Shown: piece by piece, positions 39,319 through 46,500 of the stretch | Layout of the letters: every line of letters starts with the position of its first letter | Position numbering within the stretch: position 1 is the first letter of the stretch | Origin: Thermanaerovibrio velox DSM 12556 | GTDB taxonomy: Bacteria; Synergistota; Synergistia; Synergistales; Synergistaceae | Direction of reading: 5' to 3' | Assembly (NCBI RefSeq): GCF_000237825.1 | Contig: NZ_CM001377.1 | Span: forward strand, 620,001 to 684,000 | Length of the DNA stretch: 64,000 bases | Notes under the pieces: generated by a model | Told to the model about the DNA's origin: nothing | Seen by the model: the letters and a program-made list of their open reading frames with translations, nothing else | Databases searched by the model: none | Made by a program: the position numbers and the translations under genes

Positions 39319-39357
39319 CCTGTAAGCCCTGTTCTTTGGGGTAGAGGTACTTAGGTT

Positions 39358-39397
39358 ATACGGGCCCTGGGTTGCCGGGGCTCGTATGTTTTTTAAA
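39358..39397 (+). terminator. Intrinsic terminator after lat
   Basis: Stem of TACGGGCCC with GGGGCTCGTA (some G-U pairing), followed by GTTTTTT. It separates lat from the glycine reductase promoter and riboswitch. Confidence 0.65.
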
Positions 39398-39403
39398 ACC
39401 CTC

Positions 39404-39431
39404 TTGACCCCTATGGGGGGAGGTGTAAAAT
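39404..39431 (+). promoter_or_regulatory. Promoter of the glycine reductase operon
   Basis: TTGACC (39404-39409), 16 bases, TAAAAT (39426-39431). A start near 39438 would place the riboswitch at the very 5' end of the transcript. Confidence 0.65.
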
Positions 39432-39450
39432 TCTATATGGCCGGATGATC

Positions 39451-39650
39451 GTCGCAAGAGAGTTCCCCGGATAGGATATCCTTGAGGGGACGCCGAAGGG
39501 GCAAGACCTTGGAAGGTTGAATCTCTCAGGCTAAAGGATTGCGGCGGGACGGTCCTCTGCAGATGGCCGGTTGGGGCCACCCCGGGGGCAAACGTCAGGC
39601 ATGCGATGCCTGAGTGTGAATCCCCTCATCAGGGGCGAAGCCAGAGGAGA
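39451..39650 (+). promoter_or_regulatory. Glycine riboswitch, second aptamer divergent
   Basis: Aptamer 1 (about 39454-39542) shows the conserved AGAGAG, CGCCGAAGGGGCAAG and AATCTCTCAGGCTAAAGGA blocks. A second aptamer-like unit follows (39553-39648), closed by TCCTCTG with CAGAGGA and holding GGGGGCAAAC plus a perfect hairpin TCAGGCAT-GCG-ATGCCTGA; its core is further from consensus (GAATCCCCTCATCAGGGG). In this class, glycine binding normally turns on glycine-use genes, which fits the grd operon directly downstream. Confidence 0.85.
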
Positions 39651-39685
39651 CACCTCTTATTGAGTAGTGAAGGGGGGGCGTCCTT

Positions 39686-40054
39686 TTGCGGGCTTCGCTT
39701 TGCATCACTAACAACCCACTGGTGATCCGAAGGGTTCCTGGAGCGCTCTGAGTTTCAGGGCATGGCGGGGAGGTGCTCCTCGCGTCCCGGGACATGGTTC
39801 ACAGGGGTCACAGACTCCTTTCCCATCCCCTTTATGGAAACATGAGGCCCCACCAGCAGCCTTTCAGGACCGTGCTCCTGGATGGTTCTTTGGGGCGGTT
39901 GGATTACGATTCCCTGAATCTCATAGAGGAGGCCCTTGGGGTCTACAGGTCCTATGGGGATCTTCCTTCCCCGGAGAGTTTCCCTCACAAGGACGACTTG
40001 GCTTACGTGGATCTTAAGCTCATAGAGCATACCCTGGACATCTACGGCCTTTAG
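39686..40054 (+). CDS. grdX: GrdX family protein, two compensating frameshifts
   Basis: Small protein of unknown role that accompanies glycine reductase genes. TTG start (39686) with AGGGGGGG upstream gives M-R-A-S-L-C-ITNNPLVIRR, the family N-terminus. The frame then hits TGA, but the neighbouring frame reads FLERSEFQGMAG and the original frame resumes EVLLASRDMVHRGHRLLSHPL... An extra G in AAGGGTT (about 39730) and a missing G in GCGGGGAGG (about 39765) explain both, and total length stays a multiple of 3 (122 residues). Confidence 0.8.
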
Positions 40055-40101
40055 GCGGTTGATGAAGTTCTGTCATTCCCCATGGAAGGGAGGTGATATG
40101 C

Positions 40102-40422
40102 ATGATCGAGGTTAACAAGGACAACTACGAGGCGGAGGTTCTTGGTTCTTCCCTGCCCGTGGTGGTGGATTTCTGGGGGCCCTCCTGCGGTCCGTGTCTT
40201 GCGTTGATGCCGGAGGTCACCAAGATGGCGGAGGAGTTTGAAGGACGGGTTAAGTTCTGCAAGCTCAACGCCGCGGAGAACCGGAGGCTTTGTGCGGGTT
40301 TGAAGGTTATGGGGCTCCCCACCTTCCTGTTCTACAAGAACGGCGAGCTGGTAGACAGGATAACCGGGGCGGAGGTAACCCTCGAGGCCATAAGGGAGAG
40401 GGCTGAGAAGCTCCTGGGGTGA
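40102..40422 (+). CDS. trxA: Thioredoxin of the glycine reductase operon
   Basis: Electron donor that reduces the selenoprotein of glycine reductase. 106 residues with VVVDFWGPSCGPC; the active-site pair is C-G-P-C, preceded by Ser rather than the usual Trp. VMGLPTFLFYKNGE gives the cis-proline loop. ATG 40102 follows GGGAGGTGA. A thioredoxin reductase gene, often next to it, is not in the window. Confidence 0.92.
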   Translation: MIEVNKDNYEAEVLGSSLPVVVDFWGPSCGPCLALMPEVTKMAEEFEGRVKFCKLNAAENRRLCAGLKVMGLPTFLFYKNGELVDRITGAEVTLEAIRERAEKLLG

Positions 40423-40467
40423 TGGTGATGCCTGCGGGTTCTTCATGCAGTGGAAGGGAGGGATAAC

Positions 40468-41766
40468 ATGAGGCTGGAGCTTAACGAATTTTGCGTTAAA
40501 GCATTGGAGTGGGGGAGCTCGACTAGGCTTGAGGGCGGCACGCTCTACGTCTCCAAGGAGGAGATCATAGAGCACCTTAAGGGTGATGAGCGCCTTAAGT
40601 CTGTTGACGTGGACCTGGCTCGTCCGGGAGAGAAGGTTAGGATAACCCCGGTCAAGGATGCGGTGGAGCCCCGGTGCAAGCTGGAGGGCCCCGGGGAGGT
40701 GTTCCCCGGTTTCATCGGTGACGTGGAAACCGTTGGGAGCGGAAGGACCTTGGTTCTCAAAGGGGCGGCGGTGCTAACCTGTGGGCGTATAGTGGGCTTC
40801 CAGGAGGGCATCGTTGACATGAGCGGTCCTGGGGCGGAGTATACCCCCTTCTCGAAGACCTTCAACGTGGTGCTCGTCTTTGAGCCCCGGGATGGCCTGG
40901 AGAAACACGATTACGAAGCTGCCTGCCGTCTAGCGGGGTTGAAGTGTGCCCACTTCCTGGCGAGGAAGGCGATGGAATCGGTCGGTGGGGTTAAGCCTGA
41001 CAACGTGGAGGTGTTTGAGCTGCCTTCCCTCAGGGAGGCCATGACGTCCCATCCGGGGCTTCCCAAGGTGGCCTACCTCTACATGCTTCAGACCCAGGGT
41101 TTGCTGCACGATACCTACGTTTATGGGGTGGATGCCAAGAGGATAATCCCCACCCTTATCCATCCTAATGAGGTTATGGACGGGGCCATAGTATCCGGGA
41201 ACTGCGTCTCCGCCTGCGACAAGAACAGCACCTACGTACATCTCAACAACCCGGTGATAAGGGCCCTTTACGCCAGGCACGGGGTGGATCTCAACTTCGT
41301 GGGGTGCATAATCACCAACGAGAACGTGACCCTGGCGGATAAGAAGAGGAGCTCTTCGTATGCCACCAAGCTGGCCGCCATGTTGGGGGTTGACGGGGTG
41401 GTCATAAGCGAGGAGGGCTTTGGCAACCCTGACACGGATCTCATCATGAACTGCCGCAAGGCGGAGGCCCTTGGGATCAAGACGGTGCTCATAACCGACG
41501 AGTACGCCGGAAGGGACGGGGCAAGCCAGTCCCTGGCGGACGCCGCCAAGGAGGCGGATGCGGTTGTCACCGCGGGCAACGCCAACGCCATGATAGTGCT
41601 GCCTCCCATGGAGAAGGTGATAGGCTTCACCGAGTACGTGGATGTCATAGCCGGCGGCTTCTCCGGGTCCTTGCGGGAGGATGGCTCCATAGAAGTGGAG
41701 CTTCAGGCCATAACCGGGGCCACCTGCGAACTTGGTTTCGGTAAGCTTAGCGCCACCACGTACTAG
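40468..41766 (+). CDS. grdE: Glycine reductase component B, alpha/beta proprotein
   Basis: Substrate-binding component B proprotein. It is cleaved at an internal cysteine to give a pyruvoyl group that forms a Schiff base with glycine. The site is in SGNCVSACDKN, Cys about residue 246. Also visible are GRIVGFQEGIVDMSGPGAEY and the C-terminal ITGATCELGFGKLSATTY. ATG 40468 has GGAGGG 5 bases upstream. 432 residues, normal length. Confidence 0.93.
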   Translation: MRLELNEFCVKALEWGSSTRLEGGTLYVSKEEIIEHLKGDERLKSVDVDLARPGEKVRITPVKDAVEPRCKLEGPGEVFPGFIGDVETVGSGRTLVLKGAAVLTCGRIVGFQEGIVDMSGPGAEYTPFSKTFNVVLVFEPRDGLEKHDYEAACRLAGLKCAHFLARKAMESVGGVKPDNVEVFELPSLREAMTSHPGLPKVAYLYMLQTQGLLHDTYVYGVDAKRIIPTLIHPNEVMDGAIVSGNCVSACDKNSTYVHLNNPVIRALYARHGVDLNFVGCIITNENVTLADKKRSSSYATKLAAMLGVDGVVISEEGFGNPDTDLIMNCRKAEALGIKTVLITDEYAGRDGASQSLADAAKEADAVVTAGNANAMIVLPPMEKVIGFTEYVDVIAGGFSGSLREDGSIEVELQAITGATCELGFGKLSATTY

Positions 41767-41864
41767 CCTGGGGATAGTGGGGTTAGAGCCCGGTATTAGG
41801 GGCGTTGCTTTTAATTCGTGAGCTCTTTAGCGAACTTAACAAACTAGAAAGGGGAGGTGAGGAC

Positions 41865-42341
41865 ATGGGGAAGCTGGCTGGTAAGAAGCTCATTCTGTTG
41901 GGTGAGCGAGATGGAGTGCCCGGGCCCGCCATGGAGGCGTGCCTTAAGGACTGCGGGGCGGAGATAGCCTTTGCGGTCACCGAGTGCTTCGTCTGAACCG
42001 CCGCTGGAGCCATGGACCTGCAGAATCAGCAGAGGGTTAAGGACATCGCCGAGAAGTTCGGTGCGGAGAACGTGGTAGTCATCTTGGGTTCCTCCGATGC
42101 GGAGGGGGCTGAGATCTACGCGGAGACCGTAACCGCTGGTGATCCCACCTATGCGGGTCCGTTGGCGGGAGTCTCGTTGGGACTTCCCGTATATCACATC
42201 TTTGATCCAGAGATAAAGGCGGAGGCTGACCCAGCCCAGTGGGAGGAGCAGGTCAGCATGATGGAGATGGTCCTCGATCCGGAGGCCTTGTCCGAGGCGG
42301 TTAGGAAGATTAGGGAGACCCACAGCAAGCATACCCTCTAA
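41865..42341 (+). CDS. grdA: Glycine reductase selenoprotein A
   Basis: Carries the selenocysteine that takes the carboxymethyl group from component B and passes it to component C. In-frame TGA at 41994-41996 falls at C-F-V-U, the known C-x-x-U redox site of the family (U is residue 44); the protein continues [22 protein letters not shown] and ends 158 codons later. A raw translation breaks it in two. ATG follows GGGGAGGTGAGGAC. Reduced by the thioredoxin encoded upstream. Also used by sarcosine and betaine reductases in other organisms. Confidence 0.95.
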
Positions 42342-42377
42342 TCGGCGCTTACAGGAGAGGGAAAGGAGGGAGACAGA

Positions 42378-43685
42378 ATGGCCTATAGAATAGTTCACTA
42401 CCTCAACCAGTTCTTCGCCGGCTTAGGGGGAGAGGAAAAGGCGGACACCACGCCGCTCAAGAAGGACGGCCCCGTGGGGCCTGGCATGGCCCTTAACGCG
42501 GCCTTTGGCGGCGAGGCGGAGGTTGTGGGCACCGTGATATGCGGTGACGGTTACTTTGCGGAGCACATGGATGAGGCTACGGATCAGGTCCTCGAGCTCA
42601 TCTCGTCCTTCTCCCCCGACGCGGTGGTCTTGGGGCCCGCTTTCAACGCGGGGCGTTACGGGACCGCATGCGGCGCCGTGGGGGATGCGGTTTCTAAGAG
42701 GCTTGGCATACCGGTAGTGGGTGGCATGTATCCCGAGAACCCGGGCGTTGAGATGTACCGTAAGAGTTTCCCCATAGTGAGGACCTCTGACAACGCCAGG
42801 GGGATAAAGGACGCGGTGCCCGCCATGGCGGGGATAGCCCTTAAGCTGCTAAAGGGTGAGCCCCTTGGTGCTCCTGCTGAGGAGGGCTACATCGAGCGTG
42901 GGGTGCGGGTTAACCTTTTCAGGGACGTTATAGGAGCAGAGCGGGCGGTGGAAATGTTGGTCCGCAAGCTCAAGGGTGAGCCCTTTACCACCGAGTATCC
43001 CATGCCGGTTTTTGACAGGGTGCCTCCTGCAGGGGCTCTCAAGGACCTGAAGAACGCCACCATAGCCCTTGTTACCTCCGGTGGGATAGTGCCCAAGGGT
43101 AATCCGGATCACATCGAGGCGTCCAGCGCCACGAAGTACGGCGAGTACTCCATAGACGGAGTTGCGAGCCTTACCAGCGATGGTTATGCCACTGCTCACG
43201 GTGGATATGATCCGACCTACGCCAACTCCGACCCCAACCGGGTGCTCCCGGTGGACGTGCTTCGCCAGATGGAGTCCGAAGGGGTGTTCAAGAAGCTGTA
43301 CCCCTACTTCTACAGCACCGTTGGCAACGGTACCCCTGTGGCCAACGCCAAGAGGTTCGGGCAGGAGATAGCCTCAAAGCTTAAGAAGGATGGGGTGGAT
43401 GCGGTCATCCTCACATCCACCTGAGGAACCTGTACTCGTTGCGGTGCAACGATGGTAAAGGAGATAGAGAGAGCGGGCATTCCGGTGGTGCACGTGTGTA
43501 CCATCGTGCCGATATCCTTGACCGTGGGGGCTAACCGTATAGTTCCTGCGGTTGCCATACCGCACCCCCTGGGAGATCCCAACAGGACCAGGGAGGAGGA
43601 GCTGGACATCAGGCGCCGCCTGGTGGAGAAGGCCCTTAAGGCCCTTCAGACCGAGGTCAGCGACCAGACCGTGTTTGCCGACTGA
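42378..43685 (+). CDS. grdB: Glycine reductase component B selenoprotein subunit
   Basis: Gamma subunit of component B; it activates the glycine amine adduct. In-frame TGA at 43422-43424 is residue 349 in T-S-T-U-G-T-C-T-R-C, the U-x-x-C-x-x-C pattern of GrdB. Reading through gives 435 residues, with AFNAGRYGTACGAVG and MYPENPGVEMYRK in the first half and NRIVPAVAIPHPLGDPN after the Sec. A perfect hairpin follows the TGA (see SECIS entry). AAAGGAGGGAGACAG lies upstream of the ATG. Confidence 0.95.
43436..43452 (+). promoter_or_regulatory. Selenocysteine insertion (SECIS) hairpin in grdB
   Basis: TCGTTGC and GCAACGA form a perfect 7-bp stem closing a GGT loop, starting 11 bases after the TGA. 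Bacterial SECIS elements are short hairpins with G/U in the loop in this position, recruiting SelB. Confidence 0.75.
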
Positions 43686-43700
43686 GGTCCTTTGAAAAAT

Positions 43701-43744
43701 GGGCGGTCCTGTCGTTCTCGTCTGAGGCGGTGGGACCGCCCTTT
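43701..43744 (+). terminator. Hairpin between grdB and grdC
   Basis: GGGCGGTCC (43701-43709) pairs perfectly with GGACCGCCC (43733-43741); AAAAA precedes and TTT follows. It may partly end transcripts so that A and B components are made in excess over C, or protect mRNA ends. Confidence 0.6.
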
Positions 43745-43767
43745 CACACATAAAAGGGGTCCTAAGA

Positions 43768-45330
43768 TTGCCCACGAGGGAGGTTGTTTTAAAGATGGCT
43801 AACTGTTCTGTCCTGGGGACGTCGTACTGCCTCAATCACGTCCCCAACCTGGCTTATCATTACGGAAATACACCTTGGGTGGAGAGGGAGACCGCGGGGG
43901 AGACGGATTTTCTGAAGACCCTTAGGAATGCCATGTGCAGCCATCAGTTTGCTTGTTCCTACGCCCCCAACGGGGCTTACATAGGTGCCATGGACCTGTC
44001 TGAGCTTGAGGCACACCCTAAGCCGTGGGTGGAGAACCCCATGAAGGAGCCCAAGCGCTTTGGCCGCTACGGGGAGATAATGCCCGAGGACGAGTTCCTT
44101 GGTTTGATGGACCTCTGTGATGTGTTCGACCTCATATGGCTTGAGGAGTCCTTCGCGAGGGAGGTCCGGGAGAAGCTTTCCTCCCATCCCCTGATGAAGG
44201 ATCATATGATCCAGCGTCTCGAGGCTGGACATCCCCTTGATGAGATTCAGGAGGAGACCTCCAAGGGGGCCCTTCCGCTGTACCTGGGAGACCGGGTTGT
44301 GGGATGTTGCAGGAAGGGGCACGAGATAGACGAGTGTTTGTCGTCTTACGTGCTTCTTGAGAACCTGGCCTGCAAGGCCGGGGGTGTTCTAGCCCTCTTG
44401 CACCTTTTGGACAAGACCGGCCTTGCCCCTGAGGAAGTGGACTTCGTAGTGGAGTGCTCCGAGGAGGCCTGCGGGGACATGAACCAGCGGGGTGGCGGTA
44501 ACTTTGCCAAGGCGGTGGCGGAGATATGCGGGTGCGTCAATGCCAGCGGTTGTGACGTGAGGGGGTTCTGCGCCGGTCCGGTTAACGCCTTGATAGTGGG
44601 TGGATCCATGGTGGCCGCTGGGGCCAGGAAGAACGTGGTGGTTTTGGCTGGAGGAGCGGTGCCCAAGCTCTACATGAACAGCCGGGACCACGTTAAGAAG
44701 GGCCTGCCCCCCCTGGAGGACTGCCTTGGGAACTTTGCGGTGTTGTTGGGTCCTGAGGACGGTAAGAACCCGGTGATCCGGCTTGATGCCCTCGGTAAGC
44801 ATTCTGTTGGTGCTGGGGCATCTCCTCAGGCGGTTACCACCGTTTTGGTTTACGACCCGCTGGTCAAGCTGGGGCTTGGTTTCCTGGACGTGGACAAGTA
44901 TGCCGCGGAGCTCCACATACCGGAGATAACCCTGCCCGCAGGGGCTGGGGATCCCGCCAACGGGAACCTCAAGATGATAGCTGCGCTGGCGGCCATGAAG
45001 GGTCAGATAGAGAAGGCCAAGATGAATGACTTTGTTGTGGAGCGTGGGATGCCGGGTTTTGCCCATACCCAGGGGCACATTCCCTCTGGCGTGCCGTTCC
45101 TTGGGCATGCCAGGGATTGGATCTTGGAGGGGCGCATAAAGCGGGCCATGATAATAGGCAAGGGGAGTCTTTTCCTCGCCAGGATGACCAACCTATCCGA
45201 TGGGGCTTCCTTTGTGCTTGAGGGTGCTTCGGGTGCGGGTACTTCCTCTGAGGGGCTAGGGAAGGAGCAGGTCAAGGCCATCATCCTGGAGGCCCTTGAG
45301 GAGGCCCTGTCCTCCCTCCGCAAGTCTTAA
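43768..45330 (+). CDS. grdC: Glycine reductase component C, beta subunit
   Basis: Component C releases acetyl phosphate from the acetyl group that reaches it from selenoprotein A. 520 residues of the FabH/thiolase-like GrdC family: VLGTSYCLNHVPNLAYHYG at the start, CGCVNASGCDVRGFCAGPVNAL in the middle and MPGFAHTQGHIPSGVPFLGHA near the end. TTG start with AAAGGGG upstream; an ATG at 43795 is an alternative. Follows grdB after the hairpin. Confidence 0.93.
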   Translation: MPTREVVLKMANCSVLGTSYCLNHVPNLAYHYGNTPWVERETAGETDFLKTLRNAMCSHQFACSYAPNGAYIGAMDLSELEAHPKPWVENPMKEPKRFGRYGEIMPEDEFLGLMDLCDVFDLIWLEESFAREVREKLSSHPLMKDHMIQRLEAGHPLDEIQEETSKGALPLYLGDRVVGCCRKGHEIDECLSSYVLLENLACKAGGVLALLHLLDKTGLAPEEVDFVVECSEEACGDMNQRGGGNFAKAVAEICGCVNASGCDVRGFCAGPVNALIVGGSMVAAGARKNVVVLAGGAVPKLYMNSRDHVKKGLPPLEDCLGNFAVLLGPEDGKNPVIRLDALGKHSVGAGASPQAVTTVLVYDPLVKLGLGFLDVDKYAAELHIPEITLPAGAGDPANGNLKMIAALAAMKGQIEKAKMNDFVVERGMPGFAHTQGHIPSGVPFLGHARDWILEGRIKRAMIIGKGSLFLARMTNLSDGASFVLEGASGAGTSSEGLGKEQVKAIILEALEEALSSLRKS

Positions 45331-45345
45331 GGCTGGTGATCTTCG

Positions 45346-46500
45346 ATGCTGCGTCATAAAGAGATTGTAGCGGAGGCCCTGGAGGAGATAATAGCCCTTG
45401 CCAAGGGTGAGGGGCGGAAGCCCGTCAGGATAGCGCTCATGGCCAGGGGCAATGAGGTTGGGGTGCAGGAGCTCTTGATGGGGGCCCGACGGGCCATGAG
45501 GGAGGACAGGGCCCTCAAGGTGGTGATGGTGGGTCCCCGGGTGAGCGGTTTTGACGACCTTGAGTGGATTGAGACCGAGGACTGCGAGGAGGCGGTCTCC
45601 TCTGCCATTGAGAAGGGGCTGTCGGATCCCGCGGGTTTTGACGGTGCGGTGGCGCTTCACTATCCGTTCCCCCTGGGTGTTGCGACCGTGGGTATGGTGG
45701 TGACCCCGGGGCGAGGTCGACCAATGCTCATATCCAGCACCACCGGAACCGCTTCTGCGGACCGGGTGGAGGCCATGGTCATCAACGGTGTGCTGGGTAG
45801 GGCGGTCGCCCGGTGTCTTGGAATTGAGGACCCCACATTGGGGGTGCTTAACGTTGAAGGGGCCGCATCTGCAGTGCGAGCTCTTGGGAGGCTGAAGGAT
45901 GCGGGGTATCCGCTGAGGTTCGGCTCGAGTCTTAGGTCTGACGGGGGGGCGCTCCTCAGGGGAAACGACATACTTGCCGGTGCGGTGGACGTCTGTGTGT
46001 GCGACAGCCTGACCGGCAACGTGCTCAACAAGATGTTCTCCGCCTTCACCACCGGCGGTGCCTATGAGGCGGTGGGTTGGGGATACGGCCCCTCGGTTGG
46101 CATTGGTTGGGGGCGGGTGATATCCATAATATCCCGGGCATCCGGGGAGCCGGTGGTGGCGGGAGCCATTGCATACACCGCCAAGATGGTGAGAGGTTGT
46201 CTGCCCAAGGTGGTCGAGCAGGAGGTGGCCTGGGCTAAGGGAGCCGGTTTGGAGGATGTATTGACGAGTCTTAAGGGCACCGCAACGGTGCAGCCGGATG
46301 TTCAGTGTCCCCCTAAGGAGCCCACCGATGAGGAGATATCCGGAGTGGACGTCCTCGAGGTGGAGGTGGCCACAAGGGTCCTTTGGCGGGAGGGCATATA
46401 TGCGGAGTCAGCCATGGGCTGTACCGGTCCGGTGATCAAGCTCGCCTCAAGGAACCACGCAAGGGCGGTGGAGCTGTTAAGATCCGCCGGGTACATTTAA
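45346..46500 (+). CDS. grdD: Glycine reductase component C, alpha subunit
   Basis: Acetyl-carrying subunit of component C, of the PlsX-like GrdD family. 384 residues. The cysteine in SAMGCTGPV is residue 359, the position known to be acetylated in the Eubacterium acidaminophilum enzyme. Also TTGTASADRVEAMVING and VGWGYGPSVGIGWGR. The product is acetyl phosphate, used for ATP by acetate kinase (gene not in window). Last gene before a strong terminator. Confidence 0.93.
   Translation: MLRHKEIVAEALEEIIALAKGEGRKPVRIALMARGNEVGVQELLMGARRAMREDRALKVVMVGPRVSGFDDLEWIETEDCEEAVSSAIEKGLSDPAGFDGAVALHYPFPLGVATVGMVVTPGRGRPMLISSTTGTASADRVEAMVINGVLGRAVARCLGIEDPTLGVLNVEGAASAVRALGRLKDAGYPLRFGSSLRSDGGALLRGNDILAGAVDVCVCDSLTGNVLNKMFSAFTTGGAYEAVGWGYGPSVGIGWGRVISIISRASGEPVVAGAIAYTAKMVRGCLPKVVEQEVAWAKGAGLEDVLTSLKGTATVQPDVQCPPKEPTDEEISGVDVLEVEVATRVLWREGIYAESAMGCTGPVIKLASRNHARAVELLRSAGYI

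Follow-up and report, generated by a model that had tools for sequence, protein, structure and literature searches.

A glycine riboswitch with a full-size second unit lacking the canonical glycine core, upstream of a glycine reductase operon in Thermanaerovibrio velox

Introduction

The route by which tandem glycine riboswitches gave rise to singlets is a matter of debate. Ghost aptamers and the decay of tandems into singlets have been published previously (PMC6944388, PMC9481103, PMC7357161); in the model proposed, one aptamer degrades slowly into a ghost that retains only its contacts (PMC6944388), and singlets are reported to need the ghost aptamer for these contacts (PMC7357161, PMC6944388).

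A leader in Thermanaerovibrio velox DSM 12556 raises the question of what a second aptamer may still do once its ligand pocket has gone. It lies in a window of 64,000 nucleotides (the whole stretch of DNA analysed), whose initial annotation placed a glycine aptamer before a degenerate second unit and suggested for the latter a decayed aptamer, an ON/OFF switch, or an aptamer for another ligand. Based on sequence, conservation, structure models, mutually exclusive predicted pairings and gene context, we consider it likely that the element is a glycine ON switch for a grd operon, in which one working aptamer is joined by a naturally pocketless second aptamer acting as docking scaffold and switching arm. 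The second unit is best read as a known element, the ghost aptamer, in full-size form. Variant units of this kind were recovered in four families, where they look like an intermediate in the published decay model; with the pocket gone and the docking parts kept, they are natural constructs with which to separate the requirements of folding and switching from those of ligand binding. A non-exhaustive search of the open-access literature, whose listings included papers naming both the glycine riboswitch and glycine reductase (e.g. PMC12674515 and PMC11477304), found no description of a large pocketless unit or of glycine riboswitches upstream of grd genes in Synergistota.

Results and discussion

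Aptamer 1 and the leader

The whole 1.88 Mb genome contains a single match to the glycine riboswitch model RF00504, a canonical aptamer with intact core at 39445-39551 (forward strand, as are all features below). The match is full length (model positions 1-94 of 94; 67.6 bits, E 6.4e-12, gathering 32), bearing out the annotated good fit of aptamer 1 to the consensus. The preceding leader, CCGGAUGA (39441-39448), was delimited by alignment to the tandem model RF03166 and by a fold with P1 forced, both of which pair its CCG (39441-39443) with CGG of the linker (39550-39552), the leader-linker pairing (P0) of glycine riboswitches. By analogy with the known family, P0 may bend as a kink-turn. A promoter-like site, TTGACC-16-TAAAAT (39404-39431; 10/12 in a consensus scan), is a candidate by sequence likeness and would put the start of transcription roughly at the leader. 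Upstream of it, a terminator-like hairpin followed by TTTTTT (39357-39388) lies 3' of an aminotransferase gene resembling L-lysine 6-transaminase (478.6 bits, under the model cut-off of 520.8).

A second unit without the glycine core

The second unit, delimited by fold and by the two covariance models described below (R1 and R2), is an aptamer-like domain of 94 nt at 39554-39647 that appears pocketless. Its closing stem is retained as annotated: the P1 5' strand CCUCUG (39554-39559) pairs with CAGAGG (39642-39647) according to folds and covariation. P2 is a predicted hairpin, UGGCC/GGCCA (39564-39579). The 5' side of P3a (39580-39588) reads CCCC, an unpaired G39584 and GGGG, where the canonical aptamer has GCC-GAAG-GAG, and its 3' side (39622-39635) reads CCCC-UCAUCA-GGGG in place of CUC-UCA-GGC, as judged from sequence and relatives and, for the 5' side, also from the fold. 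Folded alone, the unit pairs CCCC 39580-39583 with GGGG 39632-39635 and GGGG 39585-39588 with CCCC 39622-39625, and is mildly better than shuffles (z -1.67). The conserved junction strands CAA (39589-39591) and GAAU (39618-39621) flank P3b (39592-39617), the whole segment covering 39589-39621. J3/1 (CGAAGC) and the P1 3' strand CAGAGG together form an arm (39636-39647) that folds either into P1 or into an alternative, OFF hairpin.

The altered core sequences had been reported correctly, with GGGGGCAAAC at 39584-39593 and CCCCTCATCAGGGG at 39622-39635, and both core motifs, CCGAAG and CUCUCAGG, are absent from the unit. The RF00504 search proposed with the initial annotation, which returned aptamer 1 at 67.6 bits, gave no match to the second unit at E ≤ 10 when 39550-39780 was scanned alone. 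Another known riboswitch class was likewise rejected for the second unit, since 4227 Rfam families searched at E ≤ 10 gave only four unrelated matches of 7.3-10.1 bits, far under their cut-offs. A separate hairpin at CCCCTCATCAGGGG was also considered and discarded: its CCCC and GGGG pair into P3, relatives carry 1 to 7 bases between them, and the CCCC-A-GGGG found there in locus L014 cannot close on itself, so that a hairpin is most likely not what this sequence forms.

Model R2 was built from five second units of families f4 and f5 only, none of them from the family of the window (f1). Run at E ≤ 1 on the 64 kb window, it found two matches only, aptamer 1 (23.5 bits) and, over its entire length, 39554-39647 (22.5 bits, E 0.0021), and on the whole genome, with candidates preselected by a loose first pass, nothing at E ≤ 1. 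Among 44 loci it recovered the second unit in 10/10 variant loci of f1 and f3 (22.5-41.2 bits), and 29 ghost loci gave two weak matches at the place of the second unit (L052, 18.5 bits; L033, 16.1 bits). Since R2 also matches canonical aptamers, several above 22.5 bits and up to 35.0 bits, it recognises aptamer-like architecture rather than a separate class. The second unit of the window thus holds as real, structured and more than a chance resemblance.

Relation to known glycine riboswitches

The element shares with tandem glycine riboswitches (two RF00504 units) the leader-linker pairing, two three-helix units, a single expression platform and docking elements in both units, but differs in that its second unit is without the glycine core and unmatched by RF00504. 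With RF03166 (glycine-GGAnGA, probably named after the leader GGAUGA of its consensus) it has in common the end-to-end tandem span (39441-39648, both units) and the leader GGAUGA, and the second-aptamer consensus of RF03166, to our reading, also departs from the canonical core. The core letters differ, however, and the score of 71.4 bits against a gathering cut-off of 110 led us to reject RF03166 as the family of this element. Three canonical tandems of relatives score higher against it (82.7-87.5 bits), so the match is unspecific and indicates tandem architecture, not membership.

A closer likeness is to type-1 singlets with a 3' ghost aptamer, in which an intact aptamer is followed by a unit that has kept P1 and lost the pocket, the ghost has a scaffold role, and the expression platform lies on the ghost's 3' strand. 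An intact aptamer and a 3' partner retaining P1 are both present in the window; the partner is not reduced to the stem-loop described for this type, its 94 nt keeping P2, P3a, J3a/3b and P3b.

Occurrence in relatives

Of 52 genomes in the family, 31 have RF00504 matches, as do 117 of 180 in the order, and 128 loci were assembled from the two sets. In most of these, by approximate reading, a small stem-loop with CUCUG/CAGAG as its closing stem comes after aptamer 1, which is the layout of type-1 singlets. Variant second units occur at 16 loci in four families of one order: f1 (four loci: the window, L002 and L011 of the same genus, and L014 of another genus in the family), f3 (six), f4 (two) and f5 (four). 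All 16 sit between a normal aptamer 1 and a GrdX-like frame directly downstream. This count derives from sequence reading and model R1, not from a regular-expression sorting of the loci (92 ghost, 25 variant or full, 11 none) that mislabelled some rows, e.g. L031, L032, L062 and L114. R1, built from 13 variant units, finds 16/16 at 57.2-72.5 bits, with seven other matches in the 180 genomes at no more than 40.9 bits; the score of the window's unit is not independent, since that unit was among those used to train it.

Two RF00504 matches in tandem are present at loci L008, L012, L023, L025 and L030 (genera g11 and g12), and none of the GrdX matches listed falls in these five genomes. A scan of the genome_contigs collection with the DNA pattern GGGGCAA...GAATCC...GGG...GGACAG returned six stretches, three of which are Synergistota riboswitches of the variant-unit kind; the other three, which have no leader or aptamer 1 beside them and no glycine match at gathering, are taken as chance. 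The pattern is strict, missing the window's unit and those of f3 and f4, and is therefore silent on occurrence outside the order. A repeat-like sequence was seen in the second unit of L113 (genome G145), where three near-copies of CAGCAGCGCTA(A/G)C lie within the ghost loop.

Conserved docking parts and a drifting core

All 16 variant units have GCAA and GAATC, and none has CCGAAG or an CUCUCAGG-like motif; GGACAG before P1 is present in 12 and lost in the four of f1. (Counts of 100/100 in aptamer 1 for GCAA, CCGAAG and CTCTCAGG are uninformative because the loci were chosen by a pattern including the core.) The replaced core varies in sequence and length. Three species of the window's genus carry UCAUCA, UUUGCUA or GAU between CCCC and GGGG/GGGU, opposite a single base, with J3a/3b kept, while the core is AAC, AAU or AAA opposite AG in f5, UAA opposite GG in f4 and AAA(A) opposite UG-rich strands in f3. 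The GCAA/GAAU flanking P3b are taken to be J3a/3b, which would dock onto the partner aptamer; structures solved to date show P3 adenines docked by A-minor contacts into the partner's P1 (PMC7357161). With GCAA/GAAU kept and the core varying, the parts facing the partner thus appear fixed and the part facing the ligand drifting.

Covariation was assessed on an imperfect automatic alignment of 13 variant units against 500 shuffles. The score was 0.271 compared with 0.177 for shuffled alignments, none of the 500 reaching it, and 77.6% of cells were paired against 72.2% shuffled and 38.5-54.0% slid. Pairs changed on both sides numbered 10 (7.1 shuffled; 9/500 as high) and cells with both-side changes 30 (14.4 shuffled; 0/500 as high), with no excess of further pair types over the shuffles (21 vs 21.0; 307/500). 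P1 was paired in 91.0% of cells and lower P3a in 46.2%, a value that is partly due to misalignment. Unaided, RNAalifold recovered P1, upper P3a, P3b and two P2 pairs, 8 of its 15 pairs being compensated.

These data bear on whether the second unit could be a weakened glycine aptamer, binding poorly and providing a second threshold. A strong covariance-model score for both units had been named at the outset as the outcome that would speak against a degenerate second aptamer; it is absent in the window, yet three of the 16 variant units exceed the RF00504 cut-off (39.9, 38.9 and 36.8 bits), so some units of f3 and f4 are near canonical, and the score alone cannot decide ligand binding. Cores of canonical length in f4 and f5 point the same way. 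We nevertheless regard a weakened aptamer as unlikely: both core motifs are gone from all 16 units, RF00504 leaves the window's unit unmatched at E ≤ 10, and its internal loop is 1 by 6, compared with the larger and more even loop of the consensus. The loss of the part that holds glycine, with the shape retained, suggests instead that the second unit is probably a structural brace and switching arm, not a sensor.

Expression platform and proposed mechanism

The OFF hairpin (39636-39698) spans the Shine-Dalgarno sequence and start codon of the downstream gene, grdX, with a predicted -25.0 kcal/mol (z -2.3 vs mononucleotide shuffles), and is the minimum-energy state of the full leader. By sequence and fold, the Shine-Dalgarno-like AAGGGGGGG (39670-39678) is mostly paired within it. 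When the leader is folded up to 39652, P1 of the second unit forms; folded to 39720, the OFF hairpin wins, J3/1 and the P1 3' strand pairing with 39683-39697, and forcing P1 costs 5.3 kcal/mol, a gap that a bound, docked aptamer pair could pay. The fold of the whole leader is hardly better than shuffles (z -0.92). The ON/OFF switch first suggested for this unit is thus borne out in part, with J3/1 and the P1 3' strand (39636-39647), rather than CCCCTCATCAGGGG, as the predicted switching strand.

We infer from these features a mechanism comprising docking, a second unit that binds no ligand, an ON response and translational control. The second unit, through its P1 acceptor helix and A-rich J3a/3b, would hold aptamer 1 in a head-to-tail docked arrangement; G-C pairs and an internal loop that drifts now occupy the place of its own ligand core, and it would not be expected to bind glycine. 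Pairing of its P1 3' strand and J3/1 with downstream sequence would bury the grdX Shine-Dalgarno and start codon (OFF); glycine on aptamer 1, together with the docked pair, would stabilise P1 of the second unit, breaking the OFF hairpin and turning the operon ON. Since the hairpin open to this arm covers both the Shine-Dalgarno sequence and the start codon, glycine is predicted to activate the operon, a direction that suits a glycine-consuming operon. An ON switch with a pocketless aptamer 2 also agrees with the B. subtilis gcvT tandem, where mutation of the aptamer-2 pocket is reported to leave regulation intact (PMC5666159). This mutant, M2, reportedly retains glycine regulation and may be seen as a laboratory version of the state of the window, differing in that its mutation is engineered and in belonging to a gcvT operon under terminator control.

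Hairpins at 18 loci, of which 13 carry the large unit, were compared with mononucleotide shuffles; as only the real sequence had its hairpin length optimised, the z values look better than they should. Within f1, L002 has an OFF hairpin (-26.1 kcal/mol, z -2.5), L011 has it as an 8-pair form with no long form (z -0.8), and L014 has no clear one (z -0.7). All four f3 loci tested place the shared arm in a strong terminator-like hairpin (z -5.3 to -7.1); in three of them a U-run comes next, L080 being the exception. In f5, a terminator-like hairpin with U-run is present in L084 (z -5.0) and L094 (z -2.9), and the hairpin of L087 (z -1.3) is not formed as such; in f4, L085 has no OFF hairpin and L086 gives z -2.0. 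Competition between P1 of the second unit and an OFF hairpin looks like a logic common across families with different outputs, transcription in families with the terminator-like hairpin and probably translation in the window. At L059, L071 and L074 (f3) and L005 (f1), the leader ends in a U-run that doubles as the start of the grdX frame (e.g. ATG TCC TTT TTT TAT in L059), so that the terminator-like element and the N-terminus overlap.

The shared arm is also relevant to the proposal that the second unit serves a ligand other than glycine, for instance a further substrate of glycine reductase (sarcosine or betaine), in a two-input switch. Variants of the glycine riboswitch have been published in which the core of one aptamer or of both is altered, which reject glycine and whose ligand has probably changed (PMC9481103, citing Weinberg 2017), the architecture and junctions of the second unit are conserved, and in f1 J1/2 AGAUGG and J3/1 (C/A)GA(A/G)(G/A)C are common to 4/4 species. 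It is conceivable, though we judge it very unlikely, that the unit has been re-tooled to sense another metabolite from the glycine reductase pathway as part of a two-input gate on the docked pair, its three-way junction and not the vanished P3 core reading the ligand. The altered core varies in sequence and length between families and even within a genus, unlike a ligand pocket; conservation of J3/1 in the window is accounted for by its pairing in the OFF hairpin; and the next gene downstream is GrdX-like at 16/16 loci. Another ligand, as first suggested, thus found no positive support here and seems a decidedly improbable explanation next to that of a docking scaffold and switching arm.

Evolution of the second unit

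On a GrdE tree (73 of 100 GrdE rows, with family f6 cut to 15 and some rows under half filled), the large unit occurs in four separate places, requiring four changes, at least two of them forced by starred branches; 0/500 label shuffles were as low. The second units share homologous landmarks, and we therefore favour a tandem ancestor from which the large unit was retained in these places and collapsed to a ghost several times elsewhere; formally, it could also have been gained repeatedly. That the unit is a relic in neutral decay, serving now only to supply a 3' strand for the expression platform, would fit these scattered places and the much smaller stem-loop at the same position in many relatives, but is highly improbable given the compensatory changes in P1, P3a and P3b and the GCAA/GAAU shared by 16/16 units across families, which argue for selection on its fold. 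The early description of a decayed aptamer is consequently half the story: it applies to the glycine core, with its motifs in 0/16 units, the junction in 16/16 and core length varying within a genus, and not to the fold, which is conserved and covaries.

The grd operon and GrdX

The first gene downstream is grdX (39686-40054), for which a TTG start is proposed and which matches NF038093 (GrdX, 104.9 bits, residues 6-118) when an in-frame TGA at codon 22 (39749-39751) is read through. The remainder of the operon (40093-46500; Pfam and NCBIfam) encodes thioredoxin, grdE, the part of grdA that follows its Sec codon, the first part of grdB, grdC and grdD. By tblastn, grdE was found at 100 of the 128 loci, indicating that the RNA serves chiefly to regulate glycine reductase in this order.

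In the order, at least 13 GrdX matches contain one TGA (that of the window and those of at least 12 other genomes), and none among the matches listed contains TAA or TAG. Aligned by eye, the TGA coincides with one or other of two cysteine positions in other GrdX proteins, and in 11 of the 12 loci folded a SECIS-like hairpin begins 13-18 bases downstream of the first base of the TGA; the minimum-energy fold of L037 lacks it. To judge from these sequence features, the TGA looks like a selenocysteine codon, which would make GrdX an undescribed selenoprotein in three lineages; the available parts of the literature on GrdX and selenocysteine contained no such statement. Further downstream, just 3' of the first grdB part, a SECIS_4 element (RF01990, 62.6 bits) is present at 43425-43462, as expected for a selenoprotein B subunit.
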